From Sphingomicrobium arenosum (GTDB taxonomy: Bacteria; Pseudomonadota; Alphaproteobacteria; Sphingomonadales; Sphingomonadaceae), in NCBI RefSeq assembly GCF_026157085.1, contig NZ_JANPVN010000001.1:186001-250000 (forward strand): DNA of 64,000 nucleotides, in the 5' to 3' direction. Made by a program: the position numbers and the translations under genes. Positions within the stretch are counted from its first letter, which is position 1. Each line of letters starts with the position of its first letter. Below the pieces are notes generated by a model. It saw only the letters and a program-made list of their open reading frames with translations. It searched no databases and was not told where the DNA came from. Of the stretch, positions 56,533 through 64,000 are shown in pieces.

Positions 56533-56694
56533 CTTGGTCGTGACCGGAGGTGCCGCCGATGATCCTTCGCTCGGTCGGCATCGCGGCCTTGGCCCGAGGG
56601 CTCGACGGGTCTTCGTCAAATTCTTGCTATCGCGCCTGGAGCGGGGCGTGCGTCTTCCTTCAGGAGGCGCCGGGGGGGCGCGAGGCTGTCCCCC

Positions 56695-58002
56695 TTGCCG
56701 GCCACGGTTGAGGCGCTCGCCAGGAGACTGGTCGGCCTGCCGCGCGATCGGCGCGAAGCGGGATTGGCCCAGTTGCCTGATGAGGCGATCGCAGCGCTGG
56801 CGCAGTGGTTTGCCTTCTGGGCTCGGGGGGCACAACTGCCCCCAACAGGGACATGGAGAAATTGGCTACTGCTCGCGGGACGTGGCTTCGGCAAGACCCG
56901 GGCGGGCGCGCAATGGATTGTCGAACGCGGCGCTGCGCGAGCTTCGCAGCGCATTGCACTGGTAGCGGCGACGCTCGAGCAGGCGCGAACCATCATGGTT
57001 GAGGGGCGCAGCGGGCTGCTCGAGGTAGCTAGGCTCGAAGGTGTAAATTTGAAATGGGAGTCGGGCAGGTCTCGGCTGTGTTGGGACAATGGCAGCGAGG
57101 CGCGGTTGTTCTCGGGAGAGAGCCCCGAAGCGTTGCGTGGTCCCGAGCACCATCTGGCCTGGGCGGACGAACTGGCGAAATGGTCGCATCCGGACGCGAC
57201 CTGGGATAATTTGCAAATGGGGTTGAGGGCAGGGGCCGATTGCCGGGCGCTGGTCACGACGACACCGCGCGCGGTTCCGATCCTCGGTCGGCTGATCGAC
57301 GATGCCAATACGGTCGTGACGCGCGGTCGAACGCGGGACAATCTGACGCTGTCGCAACAGTTTCTCGACGAGATGTCGCGGAGCTATGGTGGCGGGAGGC
57401 TGGCTCGCCAAGAGCTCGATGGCGATTATCTGATCGATGTCGAGGGGGCGCTGTTCCCGCGGGGATTGCTCGAGCGATGCCGGGTGATGCCACGTGAAGA
57501 ATATGAACGGATCGTGGTGGGCGTCGACCCGCCGGCAAGTTCGGTTGGTGACGCTTGCGGAATTGTCGTGGCGGCGCGCCACGGGGATCGGATGCACGTG
57601 CTGGCCGATGCCAGTGTCGAAAAACCCACCCCAAGGCAATGGGCGAGCGCGGTCGCGAATGCGGCGCAATATTGGGGTGCTGATCGTGTCATTGCGGAGT
57701 CCAATCAGGGCGGCGAGATGGTGGAAAGCGTGCTGCGAGGGGCGGCGCGCGACCTGCCGGTAACGCGGGTCCATGCGCGGCGTGGCAAGACGGCCCGCGC
57801 CGAACCGATTGCGGCGATGTTCGAGGCGGGGCGCGCGTTCCTCGCAGGAAGCTTCCCCGTGCTCGAAGATGAATTGGCGCGCATGACCCTGGCGGGGATG
57901 AGCGGCAGCGGCGGCTCGCCCGACCGGGCCGATGCGATGATCTGGGCGCTGTGGGCGCTCATGGACGGCGGGGGAGCGCGCGCGAGGGTGCGCACACTCT
58001 GA
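56695..58002 (+). CDS. GTA/phage terminase large subunit
   Basis: A 435-residue DNA-packaging motor: ATPase plus nuclease. Walker A is LLLAGRGFGKTRAGAQW (about residues 59-75), Walker B region HLAWADELAKW (about 150), coupling motif ALVTTTPR, and a C-terminal RNase-H-like nuclease with VVGVDPPASSVGDACG and ESNQGGEM. The N-terminus with FWARGAQLPPTGTWRNWLLL matches RcGTA g2-type terminases. The first in-frame start is a TTG at 56695 with only a weak GAGG upstream; no ATG or GTG is available, so translation may be weak. Portal follows after 9 bases. The small terminase gene is not evident in the 160 bp before it. Confidence 0.92.
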   Translation: MPATVEALARRLVGLPRDRREAGLAQLPDEAIAALAQWFAFWARGAQLPPTGTWRNWLLLAGRGFGKTRAGAQWIVERGAARASQRIALVAATLEQARTIMVEGRSGLLEVARLEGVNLKWESGRSRLCWDNGSEARLFSGESPEALRGPEHHLAWADELAKWSHPDATWDNLQMGLRAGADCRALVTTTPRAVPILGRLIDDANTVVTRGRTRDNLTLSQQFLDEMSRSYGGGRLARQELDGDYLIDVEGALFPRGLLERCRVMPREEYERIVVGVDPPASSVGDACGIVVAARHGDRMHVLADASVEKPTPRQWASAVANAAQYWGADRVIAESNQGGEMVESVLRGAARDLPVTRVHARRGKTARAEPIAAMFEAGRAFLAGSFPVLEDELARMTLAGMSGSGGSPDRADAMIWALWALMDGGGARARVRTL

Positions 58003-58011
58003 CAGAAAGGG

Positions 58012-59157
58012 ATGAGCATGAAGTGGCTCGACAATTGGCTCGGCGCGAAGAGCGCGCCGGGCGGACGATCCGTGCTGCCGATCCACGATATCGGTTCGCT
58101 CTTGGGCGGTCATGGAAGCGATCATCCGGGCGCCTACGTCGACCAGCTGCGCGAGGTATTCGAGCGCAATCCGGTCGGTCATCGCGCGGTTCGCGTGGTG
58201 GCTGGTGCGGTGGGTTCGCTAACAATCGACGCGAGTGGTGACGGCGCCGAACAGGGTCGGCGCCTCCTGATGCGGTCCGGCTTGCTTGAAACGATCGCGC
58301 TGCACCTGCTGCTGCATGGCAACGCTTATGTGCATCTTGCTGCGGATGCGGACGGGGCAGCGATGGCCTGGCATTGCCTCCGGCCCGAGCGCGTCAGCCT
58401 CATTACCGATCGTGACGGATGGCCGCGCGCCTACAGTTATCGCGGGCGCAGCGTCACCCATTATCCGGTGCGCGATGAGTTCGAGCGACTTTCGGTCGTG
58501 CATATTAAGGCGCTTCATCCCGGAGACGATCATGGCGGACAGGGCTGTCTCGAGGCCGCCATCGGGCCGGCGATGGTGCACAATGCGGCGAGCCGCTGGA
58601 ATCGGTCGCTGCTGGAGAATGCGGCACGTCCGTCGGGAGCGCTGATCCATGATCCCGGCGACGGGACAGTGCTCAGCGACAAGCAGTTCGAGCGCCTCAA
58701 GAGCGAGCTCGCTACGCAATATGAGGGTAGCGGAAACGCGGGACGCCCCTTGCTGCTCGACGGTGGGTTGAGCTGGCAGGCCTTCAGCCTGTCGCCCACC
58801 GACATGGACTTTATCAAGCTGAAGGAAGCGGCGGCACGCGATATCGCGCTGGCCTTCGGGGTGCCGCCGGTGCTGCTCGGCCTGCCGGGCGATGCGACCT
58901 ACGCCAACGGGCGCGAGGCAGGCCGCGCGCTCTATCGTCAGACAGTGCTGCCGCTGGCGCGAAAGATCCTGCGGGCGCTCGAGGCCCAACTCGAGGATTG
59001 GATCGATCCGGTCCGCTTAGAGGTGGACGAGGACCAACTTTCCGAATTGTCGGAGGATCGTTCGCGGCTGTGGAGCGCAGTGGGGGAGGCGGACTTCCTC
59101 AGCCGGGCCGAAAAGCGCGCCATGCTCGGATTTCCGCCTGAAGAGGTTACGCAGTGA
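58012..59157 (+). CDS. HK97-type portal protein (GTA g3-like)
   Basis: A 381-residue portal that forms the dodecameric ring at the capsid vertex through which DNA enters. Recognisable parts are FERNPVGHRAVRVVAGAVGS, LLLHGNAYVHLAADADG, HIKALHPGDDHGGQGCLEAA and LKEAAARDIALAFGVPPVLLG (about 268-288). It follows the terminase by 9 bases and overlaps the next gene by 4. The order terminase-portal-small gene-protease-capsid is that of RcGTA. Confidence 0.93.
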   Translation: MSMKWLDNWLGAKSAPGGRSVLPIHDIGSLLGGHGSDHPGAYVDQLREVFERNPVGHRAVRVVAGAVGSLTIDASGDGAEQGRRLLMRSGLLETIALHLLLHGNAYVHLAADADGAAMAWHCLRPERVSLITDRDGWPRAYSYRGRSVTHYPVRDEFERLSVVHIKALHPGDDHGGQGCLEAAIGPAMVHNAASRWNRSLLENAARPSGALIHDPGDGTVLSDKQFERLKSELATQYEGSGNAGRPLLLDGGLSWQAFSLSPTDMDFIKLKEAAARDIALAFGVPPVLLGLPGDATYANGREAGRALYRQTVLPLARKILRALEAQLEDWIDPVRLEVDEDQLSELSEDRSRLWSAVGEADFLSRAEKRAMLGFPPEEVTQ

Positions 59158-59468
59158 GCGACGCGCGCGTGATCGGCGCGCTTGCTGCGATGGCCGAACA
59201 AGGTGGGCTCGACCGCCTGACGCTGGCGGCGCTGATCGAGGAGTCGAGCGCGCGAGGGGCCCGAGACGCTATGGCGCGCCTCGGGCTCGAGGATCGCAGC
59301 GCGCGGCGCGACATGGATGACCTTCGCGAATTGTTGGGCGCGTGGCGAGCGGCGAAGAAGAGCGCGACGCACGCGCTGATCGGGTGGCTGTCGAAGGCAG
59401 TGCTCGCGCTGTGTGTTGCCGGGGCTGCCTGGCAGTTGGGCCTGCTCGCCGGGACGATCGCAAAATGA
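59154..59468 (+). CDS. Small GTA protein, g3.5-like (DUF6127 type)
   Basis: A 104-residue protein with an N-terminal helical soluble part (LAALIEESSARGARDAMARL, DMDDLRELLGAWRAAKKSA) and one membrane segment near the C-terminus (AVLALCVAGAAWQLGLLAGT). In RcGTA-type clusters a small membrane-associated gene of this kind (g3.5) lies between portal and protease. It overlaps portal and protease genes by 4 bases each. The DUF6127 name is from memory of the pattern; the function is unknown. Confidence 0.8.
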   Translation: MSDARVIGALAAMAEQGGLDRLTLAALIEESSARGARDAMARLGLEDRSARRDMDDLRELLGAWRAAKKSATHALIGWLSKAVLALCVAGAAWQLGLLAGTIAK

Positions 59469-59869
59469 CGCGTTTCGCCGGTTATGCCGCCATCTTTCAT
59501 CGCCCCGATGACGGCGGCGACGTGATTGCGCCGGGCGCGTTTCGGCGCTCTCTCGAGGGACGCGCGCCTGGTGATGTACCGCTGCTGCTGCAGCATCGCG
59601 GCGACGTCGTTGCAGGCAGGATCGAGCGGCTCGAAGAAGATGAAAAGGGGCTGCGCGTCATCGCGCGGCTCGATGGAGGGCGCGCGGGAAAGACTGCGGG
59701 CGGACTCCTGAAAAGCGGGAAATTGAAGGGTTTGAGTTTCGGCTATCGCGTGCGGCGGGCCGGGAAGAAGGGGGCGTTTCGGCGGCTCGAGGAAGTCGAT
59801 CTCGTCGAAGTCAGTCTGGTGGCGCGACCCATGCAGCCGGTGGCCCGGGTGCATGCAATCGAGGAGTGA
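59465..59869 (+). CDS. HK97 family prohead protease (GTA g4-like)
   Basis: A 134-residue S78-type serine protease that trims the capsid scaffold during head maturation. It starts MTRFAGYAAIFHRPDDGGDV, carries the catalytic His in PLLLQHRGDVVAG (about residue 41) and the catalytic Ser in LKGLSFGYRV (about 86), and ends with VDLVEVSLVARPMQPVA. It is shorter than typical phage proteases (about 180-200), as in GTAs. ATG overlaps the previous stop; the capsid gene begins within 11 bases. Confidence 0.9.
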   Translation: MTRFAGYAAIFHRPDDGGDVIAPGAFRRSLEGRAPGDVPLLLQHRGDVVAGRIERLEEDEKGLRVIARLDGGRAGKTAGGLLKSGKLKGLSFGYRVRRAGKKGAFRRLEEVDLVEVSLVARPMQPVARVHAIEE

Positions 59870-59879
59870 TGAATTGAAG

Positions 59880-61013
59880 ATGGAAACCAAGATGGCCGGC
59901 ACTGCCGGCAGTGACATGCTCGAGCAGAGCTTCGACATGGACAATGGCGCGGAACTGACCGCGATGAAGGAAGAGCTGGCGGTGCTCAAGCGTAAGGTCG
60001 GCCAGCAGGCGATGCGCGAGGGCCATCCCACGCTCGATGGCGTGAAGGAAGCCGGGCGCGACAAGAAGTTTGCCGATGCCTATCTGCGCCGCGGGGATGT
60101 CGCGGGGCTCGAGGCCAAGTCGATTGAATCCAACGATGCGCTCGGTGGCTACGCCATTCCGCAGGAAATCGACGGAGTGATCGACAACACGCTGCTGGCG
60201 AGTTCGCCCATCCGGCAGATCGCCAATGTGGTGAAGGTTGGCAGCGCGGGCTATCGCAAGCTGGTTGCGTCGGGCGGAACGCCGTCAGGCTGGGCCAGCT
60301 TCGAGGGCGCTCGCGGCGAGACCACGACGCCGACGTTCCACGAGATCGTCCCGGCCTCGGGCGAATTGTTCGCCAATCCGGCGGCGACCCAGCAGATGCT
60401 CGACGACGCGGCATTCGATGTGGAAAGCTGGCTGGCGGGCGAAATCGCGACCGAATTTGCTCGCGCTGAGGGCGCCGCCTTCGTCAATGGCACGGGGGCG
60501 AGCCAGCCGCTCGGTTTCCTGTCTTCGCCGGTGTCTGCCAATGGTGACGACAGCCGCGCGATGGGCACGCTGCAGACAATCGGGACGGGCAGCGCAGGGG
60601 CGTTTCCGTCAAGCGATCCGGCCGACGTCCTGCTCGATCTCGTGCAGAGCCTGCGCCAGCCGTACCGGCAGGGCGCGGTCTTCGTCATGAATAGCGCGAC
60701 TGCCGCGGCGATCCGCAAGTTCAAGACCGCCGATGGCGCCTATATCTGGCAGCCCGGCCTTGCGGCCGGCACGCCGTCGAGCCTGCTTGGCTATCCGGTG
60801 GTGGAGGCCGGGGACATGCCCGACATGGCGGCTGGCAGCCTCTCGGTCGCCTTCGGCAATTTCAAGGCAGGCTATACCATCGCGGATCGCGGCGAGACCG
60901 TGGTGCTGCGCGATCCGTACACCAACAAGCCGTTCGTCCATTTCTACGCGACGCGCCGGGTCGGCGGGCAGGTGACCAACTCGGAGAGCATCAAGCTCCT
61001 CGAGTTCGCCTGA
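59880..61013 (+). CDS. Major capsid protein, HK97 fold (GTA g5-like)
   Basis: A 377-residue capsid protein. The first about 75 residues contain a coiled-coil delta-domain-like segment (LTAMKEELAVLKRKVGQQAM) that the protease would remove. The mature part begins near SIESNDALGGYAIPQEIDGV. HK97-fold parts include SPIRQIANVVKVGSAGYRKL, EIVPASGELFANPAATQQML, GYPVVEAGDMPDM and VLRDPYTNKPFVHFYATRRV. ATG 59880 is used; a TTG at 59874 is better spaced (7 bases) from GGAG and would add two residues. A terminator-like hairpin follows 8 bases after its stop. Confidence 0.94.
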   Translation: METKMAGTAGSDMLEQSFDMDNGAELTAMKEELAVLKRKVGQQAMREGHPTLDGVKEAGRDKKFADAYLRRGDVAGLEAKSIESNDALGGYAIPQEIDGVIDNTLLASSPIRQIANVVKVGSAGYRKLVASGGTPSGWASFEGARGETTTPTFHEIVPASGELFANPAATQQMLDDAAFDVESWLAGEIATEFARAEGAAFVNGTGASQPLGFLSSPVSANGDDSRAMGTLQTIGTGSAGAFPSSDPADVLLDLVQSLRQPYRQGAVFVMNSATAAAIRKFKTADGAYIWQPGLAAGTPSSLLGYPVVEAGDMPDMAAGSLSVAFGNFKAGYTIADRGETVVLRDPYTNKPFVHFYATRRVGGQVTNSESIKLLEFA

Positions 61014-61020
61014 TCGCTGA

Positions 61021-61064
61021 TGGGGGCGGGCGGGCAAGTCCCCGGCCGGTCCGCCCCCACTTTT
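61021..61064 (+). terminator. Terminator-like hairpin after the capsid gene
   Basis: TGGGGGCGG (61021-61029) and CCGCCCCCA (61051-61059) make a perfect 9-bp GC-rich stem around a partly self-complementary 21-base loop, followed by CTTTT. It lies between capsid and spike genes on the same strand, so it could act as a partial terminator that sets a high capsid to spike ratio. Confidence 0.7.
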
Positions 61065-61092
61065 CCAAACCGACCACCACAGGAGGCGCGCC

Positions 61093-63456
61093 ATGCCACA
61101 GACCGTCATTTTCGCAGATCTGGTCAGAGAGACGAGCTCGACCACCGGCACCGACAATATCCTCTTAGGAGGAGCGATAACCGGCATGCGCAGTTTTGCT
61201 GATGCCGTGGCGCCAGGCGAAAGCTTCCATTATTCGATGATTGGTAGTGACAAGCCGCAGGAAAGCGAGGCCGGGGTCGGCACGCTCCAGCCCGATGGCA
61301 CGATCTTGCGTGCGCCGTCGGGGGGCGTCTTTACGAATTTCTCGGCAGGTGAGAAGGTCGTGTCGCTGGTCGCCGGGGCGGCGTGGTATGGAGATACCGA
61401 CCAGGTGCTCGCCACCCAAAGTGAGAACATCACGATCTTGCAAGCTGCTGGCGACGCGCAAGATAGCGCGATTGCGACGCTACAGGCTGCTGGTGATGCG
61501 CATGACGGGGCAATTGTGGCACTGCAGGGAGCGGGAGCCGCACAGGATGGCGCGATCGCAAGCTTGGAGGCCACGCAGGCGGGGCAGGATAGCGCCATCG
61601 CCAATTTGCAGGCAGCGGAGCAGGCGCAAAATGCATCGATCGCTGGCAAAGCCGATGTGGACCACGGTCACGCGCTGTCGGATATTGCGGACCTCGAGGC
61701 GCGGCTGAGCGAACTTGCGGCGAGCGCGGTCGGCAATGTCACGCCTGAACGCTATGGCGCTGTCGGTGACGGCGTCGCAGATGACGGTGCGGCGCTTCTC
61801 GCTGCGATGACGGCGATGCAAAGCGCTGGCGGCATTTTGAAGCTCGCCGGCCGCTATCGCACGACGCAGGCCATCACCCTTCCCGATGCGTGCATGATGA
61901 CCGGGGGCGGCACTCTCATTACCGAGAATTCAGCGGGGCTGACCGTCGGGAATGATTGCATTTTTCACAATGTCAGCATCGTCTCGACCCATAGCAATCA
62001 TCTCGCTCTTTATTGTGTCGACAAGCATGCGCCGCGGTTGCTCGATTGTCGGATCGATGGTCGTATCTACTGTCGCAACGACGGCGCCGTCGCATTGCGA
62101 GGTCCGCGCATCGATCGAAGCCATTTCGACGTGGATTTCGGCGACGATTATGATGGTGTCGAACAGATGGACCTCTTCTCGATCTATGGGTTCGAGGGCG
62201 GTCATGTGCGCGGCTGCGACATCCGCACCGCCAATATCCATCGTCTCTTCAAGATCAGCGATAGCCTCGCCGGCACCGAGACGAGCGTCTCGAACGCGAA
62301 CAGCCGAGCGTTCGAAATCAGCGGCAATCTGCTGCGTGGCTCGGGCGGTAAGCAGGTGGTCGACTGTTATCGAGCGACCTCTGGCCTGCGCTTCGTGGGC
62401 AACCAGCTCGAACTGTCCGGTGCGCCGACCTATGCGGGGCCGAGCTGGGCGGTCGTCATCGATGACAAGAGTGCCGGTAATGAGCGCGACGCCGACGACA
62501 TCGGGGCGACGTACCTCATCAGCGGCAATTGCGGTACCATCCCCTGTGCGTTCGTCAGCCTCCAGGGGGCTTTCGGGATTACCGAGCCGGGTCATTCAGG
62601 CGACCGTCGAGCGTCCGTCCACCTGATCGACAACAAGATCCGTTGTACGAGCAGCGACAAGGCTGTGGTCGAGATTCGCTTTTTCGACGACGTTCGATGC
62701 CGCGGCAACCTGCTGGAAACCAACCCGGCGGTCGATGCGACCGTCATGCGATTGCTGAGCAACGACGAGGCGGTGCTGAGCGACGAGACCTATCGCGGCG
62801 GTATCGTGCATCTGTCGAAAGCGACGTCCAACGCCTCGGGGTTGAGCTTCGGTGGCTCGTTCGGGCGTATCGATCTGCGCCGCGTGAGCGTGAGAAACTT
62901 CGACGCATCGGGCGGCGTGAGATGCGATCGTCATCGCGGCAATGCGCTGACCATCGACGGTCTATTCTGCTCGAGCGTCGATACACCCACGCAATTGTGC
63001 CGGGCGATCTACTTTTCCAGTGGTGAAATGCTGTCGCTACTCGACATCCAGAATGTCGATGCCGAGCATGGGACCGGCGGGAATATCACGCCTGTCCTCG
63101 ATAGCGTCGCGCAGGCGGCACTGCGCACCTATCGTGACAATGGCTGGCAGCCGCGAGCGCGATTGGCGATTTCGGGCGGGGTGCCAACGAGCGGTGTCTT
63201 CCTGCGCGGGGATCGCGTGTCGGAGCTGTCTCCCGGCACGTCCAAAGGTGTCGACTATGTGTGCATTTCGGGTGGTTCGCCCGGCACATGGCGCATGAGC
63301 AGTCACGTCCCGAACAAGGCGGCGTCGATCTATCGACCCAGCCTTGCGGCGGAACATGCCGGCTTCCTTTATTTCGACACCGGTCTCGCGGCGTCCGGAA
63401 AGCCGATCTGGTGGACGGGCAGCCAGTGGGTCGACGCGGCTGGCGTGGCGGTGTGA
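61093..63456 (+). CDS. Spike/fibre-like protein with beta-helix, inside the GTA head operon
   Basis: A 787-residue structural protein. Residues 1-100 match the N-domain of many phage fibre proteins (FADLVRETSSTTGTDNILLG, ITGMRSFADAVAPGE, TNFSAGEKVVSLV). Residues 116-185 are five 14-residue repeats of the type LQAAGDAQDSAIAT, a likely trimeric coiled coil. From about 216 (TPERYGAVGDGVADDGAALL) a pectate-lyase-3-type beta-helix runs to about 690. The C-terminus (about 735-787) with GFLYFDTG and KPIWWTGSQWVDAAG is a phage-fibre tail piece. Shine-Dalgarno AGGAGG lies 6 bases before the ATG. It lies between capsid and connector genes, where RcGTA has nothing. A receptor-binding head or tail spike is the likeliest role; enzyme activity on polysaccharide is possible. 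Confidence 0.88.
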   Translation: MPQTVIFADLVRETSSTTGTDNILLGGAITGMRSFADAVAPGESFHYSMIGSDKPQESEAGVGTLQPDGTILRAPSGGVFTNFSAGEKVVSLVAGAAWYGDTDQVLATQSENITILQAAGDAQDSAIATLQAAGDAHDGAIVALQGAGAAQDGAIASLEATQAGQDSAIANLQAAEQAQNASIAGKADVDHGHALSDIADLEARLSELAASAVGNVTPERYGAVGDGVADDGAALLAAMTAMQSAGGILKLAGRYRTTQAITLPDACMMTGGGTLITENSAGLTVGNDCIFHNVSIVSTHSNHLALYCVDKHAPRLLDCRIDGRIYCRNDGAVALRGPRIDRSHFDVDFGDDYDGVEQMDLFSIYGFEGGHVRGCDIRTANIHRLFKISDSLAGTETSVSNANSRAFEISGNLLRGSGGKQVVDCYRATSGLRFVGNQLELSGAPTYAGPSWAVVIDDKSAGNERDADDIGATYLISGNCGTIPCAFVSLQGAFGITEPGHSGDRRASVHLIDNKIRCTSSDKAVVEIRFFDDVRCRGNLLETNPAVDATVMRLLSNDEAVLSDETYRGGIVHLSKATSNASGLSFGGSFGRIDLRRVSVRNFDASGGVRCDRHRGNALTIDGLFCSSVDTPTQLCRAIYFSSGEMLSLLDIQNVDAEHGTGGNITPVLDSVAQAALRTYRDNGWQPRARLAISGGVPTSGVFLRGDRVSELSPGTSKGVDYVCISGGSPGTWRMSSHVPNKAASIYRPSLAAEHAGFLYFDTGLAASGKPIWWTGSQWVDAAGVAV
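61438..61647 (+). repeat. Five tandem 14-codon repeats in the spike gene
   Basis: Five 42-base units encode LQAAGDAQDSAIAT-like segments; first residues are L, L, L, L, L and a D/N-S/G-A-I core recurs. The units are diverged in DNA sequence, so this is old or selected protein repetition rather than a recent DNA expansion. The 14-residue period equals two heptads. Confidence 0.85.
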
Positions 63457-63463
63457 GCGCGTC

Positions 63464-63601
63464 ATGATCGGACATTCCCCTATCTCGCTGCTCGCCATTT
63501 CCTCGCTGCCAGCTGCAATAACGCCGAAGCGCGGAAAACCGCCGAAAAAGCGACAGGCGAAGGCGCTTTCTGATCGACAGCTGCGCCCGGAAGCGCGCTG
63601 A
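63464..63601 (+). CDS. Small phage-type ORF (45 residues)
   Basis: ATG at 63464, 7 bases after the spike stop, encodes 45 residues starting MIGHSPISLLAISSLPAA and ending in a basic stretch (KRGKPPKKRQAKALSDR). The GHSPIS-ISSLP opening is seen at the start of many short phage proteins encoded beside fibre or head-tail genes. There it usually continues into a longer hydrophobic body, which is missing here, so this could be a shortened copy. No good Shine-Dalgarno is visible. Confidence 0.5.
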   Translation: MIGHSPISLLAISSLPAAITPKRGKPPKKRQAKALSDRQLRPEAR

Positions 63602-63628
63602 CCCACGTATCCTAGCGGAGAATAGATT

Positions 63629-63910
63629 ATGACGCTGGTCCTGAAGGATCCCGGCGCCAAGCTCGACTATCTGGTCGACTGGGGCGCCGACTATCTTGGC
63701 GAGGATGTCGTCGCCGCAAGCCATTGGGCGATATCGCCCGAGGAAGAGGGCGGTGTCGCAATCGTAGGCGAAACCTTCGACGACGCCAGTGCGACGGTCA
63801 CCGTGGCCGGCGGGGTCGCGGGGCGACGCTATCGTTTAAGCAACCGTGTGACGACTTCGAGCGGGCGGGTGGATGAACGCTCGCTCCTCCTGCGCGTGGA
63901 GGAGCGGTGA
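63629..63910 (+). CDS. Phage fibre-tail adaptor-like protein
   Basis: A 93-residue beta-rich protein matching a widespread phage pattern: KDPGAKLDYLVDWGADYLGE at the start, then ASHWAIS, a GETFDDASATVTVAGGVAGR strand pair and RLSNRVTTSSGRVDERSLLL at the end. Similar small Ig-like proteins lie beside fibre genes in siphophages and are annotated as fibre-tail adaptors. Shine-Dalgarno GCGGAGAA is upstream. Its stop overlaps the next gene's ATG by one base. It is probably a partner of the spike in assembly. Confidence 0.75.
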   Translation: MTLVLKDPGAKLDYLVDWGADYLGEDVVAASHWAISPEEEGGVAIVGETFDDASATVTVAGGVAGRRYRLSNRVTTSSGRVDERSLLLRVEER

Positions 63911-64000
63911 TGGCAGTGGAGATGAAGGTCGGCCCGTTGGTCGTCGGGTTGAGCGAGGCCCAAGCGTATGTGCGCGTCGAAGATGGCGAAGAAGAAGCGT
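63910..64000 (+). CDS. Head-tail connector (GTA g6-like), cut by window edge
   Basis: Only 30 codons are present, starting at ATG 63910 (MAVEMKVGPLVVGLSEAQAY, then VRVEDGEEEA). The pattern of a helix L-S-E-A-Q-A-Y-V-R-V followed by an acidic turn is the usual start of phage head-tail connector (gp6) proteins, and the gene is where g6 is expected. Assignment rests on this short segment and on order. Confidence 0.6.
   Translation, partial: MAVEMKVGPLVVGLSEAQAYVRVEDGEEEA

Follow-up and report, generated by a model that had tools for sequence, protein, structure and literature searches.

A putative receptor-binding cassette between the capsid and head-tail adaptor genes of a Sphingomicrobium arenosum gene transfer agent

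RcGTA is the only gene transfer agent (GTA) whose adsorption parts we found described at the molecular level in the portions of the literature searched. Its receptor-binding genes lie outside the head-tail cluster. According to the parts of these papers available to us, eleven capsid spikes bind capsule (PMC7296036), the head spikes are encoded at ectopic loci (PMC13420450), and the spike genes rcc01079-01080 are numbered next to the capsule genes rcc01081-01086 (PMC10218006). Excerpts of phage studies describe fibres held at the neck: in DEV the head-tail adaptor is encircled by a collar of 15 fibre N-barrels, “like in the podophage GP4”, and the collar fibres bear a coiled coil and an esterase-like domain (PMC10925440), and in myophage A-1(L) five neck fibres are attached through a neck ring of 15-fold symmetry (PMC10966104). 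Capsid-fibre genes have been noted in structural regions of some phages (PMC11409702), and additional conserved genes without known function in GTA clusters (PMC9765227), again in the sections available. Here we describe a fibre gene and an adaptor gene between the major capsid gene (g5) and the head-tail adaptor gene (g6) of a GTA cluster in Sphingomicrobium arenosum. The stretch analysed, hereafter the window, comprises 64,000 nucleotides (bases 186001-250000 of a 2.54 Mb contig), and the sequence was read on beyond its end.

We consider it probable that these genes form a GTA-borne, neck-anchored receptor-binding cassette, an alternative to the head spikes of RcGTA. The capsid-g6 interval holds three open reading frames (ORFs), of 787, 45 and 93 amino acids (aa), which we annotate as follows.

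61093-63456, + strand: fibre ORF, 787 aa, between capsid and g6
61093..61407, + strand: fibre N-domain (FIBN), residues 1-105, proposed anchor, conserved in genus and order
61408..61734, + strand: predicted helical stalk leading into the distal part, residues 106-214, with low-confidence helices to residue 178
61735..63456, + strand: distal part, residues 215-787, variable, with a pectate-lyase-like cap (phi92 gp150/AlgE4 matches); probably receptor-binding
63464..63601, + strand: 45-aa ORF, tblastn relatives in loci L034, L107 and L118 only
63629..63910, + strand: gp77-like fibre adaptor, 93 aa (PF23148, “Podophage GP4 fiber-tail adaptor protein gp77”, E 2e-28), its stop overlapping the g6 start

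Both presumed anchor parts are homologous to phage proteins. The N-domain, modelled at a predicted local distance difference test (pLDDT) score of 85.5, matched 32 viral models at E <= 0.001. Its own model matches chain 8jov_1 of the portal-tail complex of GP4, which ranks first among the VIA rows and second in Foldseek; a sequence search of the PDB with N-domain profiles A1 and A4 gave chance matches only. The 93-aa protein passes the curated cut-off of PF23148 (99.1 bits vs 27), and gp77 profile A2 matched PDB 8jou_D (E 5e-8). It is the matches of these two anchor parts, together with the position of the gene adjoining g6, that lead us to read the product as a neck fibre. The N-domain is also present in two named phages (profile E about 1e-21), in which the gp77, capsid and g6 profiles gave no match within 6 kb of it (E <= 10). 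An earlier note on this DNA had proposed a fibre-type N-domain and a fibre-adaptor-like protein here; both proved real, the former being conserved in relatives as well.

That the 787-aa protein is a fibre-type receptor-binding protein is well supported. Downstream of the N-domain, helices at residues 96-178 in a low-confidence model are the sole sign of a coiled-coil stalk, a PHROG tailspike matches residues 176-253 (E 4e-7), and residues ~215-294 match AlgE4 and phi92 gp150 (E 2e-4 to 4e-4). The protein fell short of the cut-off of the beta-helix tailspike family PF12708 (19 bits vs 27), and the full-length model (14 rows; pLDDT 39) was unusable beyond the N-domain, with most of the body under 40. 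Protein database searches returned five other proteins for residues 1-120 and five for residues 200-787, the latter aligned over 6-13% of the query. These matches suggest a beta-helix at the N-terminal cap only. Of the plan first proposed for this protein, then, the N-domain stands, the coiled-coil stalk is not confirmed, and the beta-helix is supported at the cap only. The similarity of the cap to AlgE4 and phi92 gp150 would also suit a spike that mainly degrades polysaccharide, clearing matrix or capsule as TspA does, and not an adhesin that chooses recipients; TspA, a beta-helix spike of RcGTA, degrades biofilm, as described in the accessible part of a preprint (PMC13420450). We regard such a role as unlikely, given that no catalytic residues were identified and that the model did not confirm a beta-helix body. 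A further point against it is that the same part of the preprint reports a TspA homologue to be absent from GTA-bearing Alphaproteobacteria outside the Rhodobacterales (PMC13420450).

We then compared the interval among relatives. The capsid protein was found in 29 of 71 genus genomes, our own included, and 27 loci from 26 other capsid-bearing genomes were read. Sixteen of these show the order capsid, N-domain, gp77, g6; the remainder comprise one locus with a truncated fibre (L050), six decayed clusters without the cassette (L046-L048, L053-L055) and four other elements with distant capsids (L057-L060). Outside the genus the order capsid, N-domain, gp77 recurred in all 20 loci read (of 36 N-domain hits), a g6 profile matching downstream of the capsid gene in every one. 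Since it recurs in other loci, the arrangement of fibre and gp77 is not due to chance. A scan of named genomes gave seven loci labelled Sphingomonas sp., all with the same gene order, which lie on the same contigs as seven other loci and are not independent. Five of the decayed clusters (L046, L048, L053, L054 and L055) share a peculiarity: the capsid match stops at about codon 367-372 with a common ...FYAT sequence, after which the right ends differ, joining g15 near residue 217 (L046, L055), a stop (L048) or a frame that by eye resembles a DUF2793 tail fibre (L053, L054). These five do not form one clade on the capsid tree.

The fibre is conserved at its base and divergent at its tip. Compared with L034, the nearest relative, the cluster proteins of the window show 50-90% identity, with the capsid at 87% and gp77 at 74%. 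For the fibre, identity is 55% in the N-domain and 49% over the 53 aa that match within residues 106-214, and residues 215-787 find no match in the L034 fibre (best E 1.3). Other fibres of the genus share distal parts among themselves to varying degree; that of the window matches only L041 among them, over 44 aa. The fibre is under purifying selection in relatives, the window fibre itself having no close relative for such an estimate. The ratio of nonsynonymous to synonymous substitution rates was 0.05 (L052/L091), 0.07 (L089/L096), 0.10 (L084/L089) and 0.12 (L078/L079) in close pairs and 0.05-0.48 across all pairs listed, which include some contigs fetched twice and frames cut by contig ends. 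In all 16 genus loci with the full order, the fibre frame is open over more than 500 aa, the shortest, in L045, being possibly broken. These values and the open frames speak against the cassette being a neutral leftover of an ancestral phage without a transfer role. The many GTA-bearing relatives without the cassette, and the repeated changes reported below, would fit such a leftover, which we nevertheless hold to be very unlikely.

Across the order, a capsid match was found in 198 of 296 genomes (a few weak ones possibly being prophages), gp77 in 81 genomes (34 of 79 genera) and the N-domain profile in 41 (10 of 79 genera). From the 157 capsid-bearing genomes negative for the N-domain we read 40 loci, scoring a slot as empty when fewer than 420 bases separate the capsid from the g6 domain. 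Twenty-three were empty, as in RcGTA; ten held gp77 with other or no cargo, two a spike base and one another insert, and four had no recognised g6. The insert is therefore not shared by all sphingomonad GTAs. Empty and filled slots occur under the same genus label in g6, g11, g20 and g38 (labels of genera here); the members of g11 do not form a single clade on the capsid tree. On that tree (84 rows, built without L057-L060 and with L156 scored as fibre by hand) cassette versus empty requires at least nine changes, and gain and loss are not distinguishable. The slot is thus a recurrent, polymorphic cassette site and not an oddity of one genome. Eight slots hold gp77 without an N-domain match (L201, L210, L211, L212, L220, L225, L228, L229). 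Seven of them contain another protein of 342-934 aa (none is listed for L212), and all eight contain a protein of 122-127 aa, by eye one sequence type with a divergent member in L225; scans of two of these proteins (L210 and L228) against Pfam and NCBIfam found nothing. In a class-wide sample gp77 was found in 7 of 385 genomes, our own included; among the two strongest matches outside the order, gp77 precedes g6 in a GTA-like cluster cut off upstream (L189) and adjoins terminase and portal (L190).

The same slot also accommodates the RcGTA type of spike. The family NF048002 (“spike base protein, RCAP_Rcc01079 family”) was found in 50 of the 296 order genomes and had no match in our own genome. 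In at least seven genomes (L193, L200, L238-L242) the spike base directly follows the capsid, with g6 after it in each. Among the 198 capsid-bearing genomes, spike base (40) and gp77 (78) co-occur in two vs 15.8 expected, a count that ignores kinship. In one of the two (G236) the gp77 match is weak and inside a long frame; in the other (G164) gp77 sits in the GTA slot and the spike base in a polysaccharide locus. No order genome has both the N-domain (present in 41) and the spike base (present in 50). Within genus g20, the N-domain is present in G246, G266, G277 and G313 and the spike base in G189, G230, G299 and G322, of which G230 and G299 have an empty slot. A tree-controlled test of gp77 against spike base (65 rows, six supported pairs) found the two never changing in the same direction and zero to three times in opposite directions, which is not significant. 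Because the counts ignore kinship, shared ancestry confounds them and the tree test has too few informative pairs, mutual exclusivity is only suggestive.

Away from the slot (L232-L237, L243-L247), the tested neighbour of the spike base was a polysaccharide gene by Pfam in 8 of 11 loci, the neighbours having been hand-picked for testing and the match in L245 lying just under the cut-off. In L232 it was a DNA glycosylase, L236 looks the same by sequence, and L237 was not tested. Spike bases beside polysaccharide genes recall the arrangement of rcc01079-01080 next to rcc01081-01086 in RcGTA.

These observations bear on whether the fibre might instead be a head spike at the capsid vertices, as GhsA/GhsB are, with the N-domain or gp77 serving as a base on capsid pentamers. 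The fibre gene lies directly 3' of the capsid gene, the slot holds a spike base in the sphingomonad genomes just mentioned, and gp77 and spike base rarely co-occur, all of which such a spike would explain. The gp77 family is, however, named for a fibre-tail adaptor and not for a capsid base, a portal-tail complex is the VIA row closest to the N-domain model, and neither the N-domain fibre nor gp77 matches NF048002. An alternating Gly-hydrophobic N-terminal peptide was moreover seen in none of 17 N-domain fibres vs 8 of 12 fibres beside a spike base (from 18 spike-base loci read) and 13 of 196 long frames as background, with only first Met starts counted and the background including some of the eight. 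This peptide resembles the Leu-Gly repeat that seats the RcGTA head fibre in its base. As the anchor proteins resemble the GP4/DEV neck-collar system more than the RcGTA spike base, a neck fibre is likelier and a vertex spike improbable. The “spike module” of the earlier note thus survives as a receptor-binding fibre, its position on the head being doubtful.

By gene content and order the cluster itself is an RcGTA-type GTA. Around the insert, the window contains the following features.

56695..58002, + strand: g2 terminase large subunit (PF03237/PF17289)
58012..59157, + strand: g3 portal (PF04860, E 3e-67)
59154..59468, + strand: g3.5-like, DUF6127 (PF19622, E 9e-22)
59342..59869, + strand: g4 prohead protease (PF04586, E 4e-25), the real start probably downstream of 59342
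59853..61013, + strand: g5 major capsid protein (PF05065, E 6e-83)
61020..61060, + strand: GC hairpin, attenuator-like, between capsid and fibre genes (minimum free energy -31.6 kcal/mol)
63907..64000, extending outside the window to window coordinate 64440, + strand: g6 head-tail adaptor (phrog_442/phrog_40)

The order from terminase through portal, g3.5 and protease to capsid, as well as a connector-like gene at 63910, had been recognised before, and Pfam and PHROG matches confirm them; g6 starts at 63907 (GTG) or 63910 (ATG) and matches PHROG head-tail adaptors (E 4e-18). Read past 64000, the head-tail cluster continues in what we take to be the RcGTA order, compared here for g2-g15, to the end of g15 at window coordinate 72464, followed by a DUF2793 tail-fibre gene (72544-72801). 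GTA-named families are matched by g10, g12 and g13, and by g15 under its cut-off; g14 and g15 both fall below their NCBIfam cut-offs (g15 with 373 bits vs 800, being shorter), and g11 has no clear family match. Two tail proteins depart in length or composition: g15 (70227-72464) has 745 aa vs 1299 positions in the megatron model, and g12 (66827-69124), of 765 aa, joins non-contractile tail sheath domains that include a TIM barrel (PF23844, PF23845) to a DUF2460 distal tail protein, so that the TIM barrel seems to be carried by another protein than in RcGTA. Beyond the tail fibre lie frames that by eye resemble host genes, namely uvrA and a gene of OmpA type. Inspection by eye of the listed frames past 64000, a stretch not searched for families, showed no gene for integrase, lysis or replication.

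Because g6-g15 and the tail fibre continue past 64000 and none of these three gene types was noticed by eye, the insert is GTA-borne, as had been supposed. Relatives of the N-domain and gp77 do occur in phages, and IMG/VR lists such contigs as viral, both of which would fit a resident or decayed phage with an ordinary phage fibre. Scanning IMG/VR with the N-domain alignment gave 55 loci (L068-L122), several of them near-copies. Capsid before and/or gp77 after the N-domain was present in 53 (both in 40, neither in 2), the contigs being compared only with the GTA proteins of the window. Although catalogued as viral, these loci have their matched genes in the order of this GTA and are possibly fragments of GTAs. 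The GTA-named families and the lack of integrase, lysis or replication genes among the frames viewed argue against a phage, as does the OmpA-like downstream neighbour, which is present again at 14 of 23 genus loci, including six decayed clusters; we consider it extremely unlikely that the cluster is a phage and not a GTA. Upstream, the neighbours tested (in our reading folE and a histidine kinase gene) have counterparts in L034 and L035 alone, the two nearest relatives, some of the fetched genus stretches being too short to reach the flanks.

The interval also has smaller features. The hairpin between capsid and fibre genes has z -1.97, with 8 of 200 shuffles equally stable, and was not among the calls of a terminator scan of 56600-64000 (8 found vs 4.3 expected); in relatives, 49 of 70 capsid-fibre spacers fold at z < -2 relative to base-shuffled sequence. 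It is possibly an attenuator. A promoter scan of the same region found 1 vs 1.0 expected. The 45-aa ORF, earlier taken for a phage-type part of the module, matches PHROG weakly (E 0.051), and tblastn found relatives of it in 1 of 27 loci in one set and 2 of 62 in another, so few that we no longer count it as a constant part. A conserved “GH” small ORF between fibre and gp77 was found in 0 of 66 loci with a filter that was too strict and says little, because it missed L034, where tblastn does match.

On the neck-fibre reading, the 787-aa protein would probably be a trimeric fibre, whose conserved N-domain would dock together with gp77 on a ring encircling the g6 adaptor at the neck between head and tail, as in the collar fibres of GP4 and DEV. 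The variable C-terminal part may bind, and perhaps trim, surface polysaccharide of recipient cells. It could then, as the earlier note supposed, affect which cells receive DNA, a step that we offer as inference. The cassette would then take the adsorption role held in RcGTA by GhsA/GhsB-type head spikes, and the DUF2793 tail fibre would make a separate, second contact. One precedent calls for caution here. According to the accessible part of the A-1(L) study, the carbohydrate-binding module of its neck fibre did not bind the host (PMC10966104), so a neck fibre need not be the primary adhesin.

More tentatively, the capsid-connector interval could be a dedicated recipient-recognition slot. Adsorption cassettes of different origin (podophage-type collar fibres with gp77, RcGTA-type head spikes, other gp77-linked proteins) would swap there, or spike genes would sit at a polysaccharide locus instead, and the tip would be exchanged faster than the rest of the particle, so that the GTA keeps re-aiming DNA at kin as surface sugars change. 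Recipient choice bears on why GTA-making cells, which die, persist, as delivery must favour kin. The particle described here probably carries its own exchangeable recipient-recognition part. This candidate part is encoded inside the operon, has a variable tip, and in relatives gives way to something else or is missing, so that strains can be compared directly for the presence of the gene, the sequence of the tip, the range of recipients and the surface polysaccharide.

In the available portions of the literature searched (PMC9836097, PMC6821227, PMC10883770, PMC9765227, PMC11409702, PMC13420450), we found no report of sphingomonad GTAs with a fibre or gp77 in the g5-g6 interval and no published name for the insert; an earlier description in Viswanathan 2017, on a Sphingomonadales prophage, is possible. 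The cassette is thus a known kind of part, a phage collar fibre, in a setting for which no description was found. A close parallel within the Sphingomonadales is a phage-type gene conjectured to replace a GTA head-tail gene in head completion (PMC9765227); it concerns g7, and the section available does not mention the g5-g6 interval. The RcGTA tailspike TspA (Rcc02623) would be comparable as a polysaccharide-directed beta-helix GTA spike if the cap match extends to the body, but its N-domain is a beta-sandwich and its attachment to baseplate and tail tube is loose, according to the accessible part of the preprint (PMC13420450).

With podophage GP4 the locus shares the gp77 family and an N-domain model near the portal-tail chain, and with DEV gp53 the plan of N-domain, helical stalk and distal domain, as given in the excerpt available (PMC10925440). 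It differs from both in belonging to a siphovirus-like GTA, for which ring, symmetry and position are putative. RcGTA GhsA/GhsB (Rcc01079/Rcc01080) resemble the cassette in their proposed first contact with the recipient and in the NF048002 base that occupies the same slot in other sphingomonads, a base our genome lacks by profile match. As far as the papers are available to us, the two systems differ further in that a globular N-domain of ~105 aa stands here in place of the short Leu-Gly peptide of RcGTA (PMC7296036), and in that the fibre is encoded inside the head-tail cluster, whereas the RcGTA head spikes are ectopic (PMC13420450).

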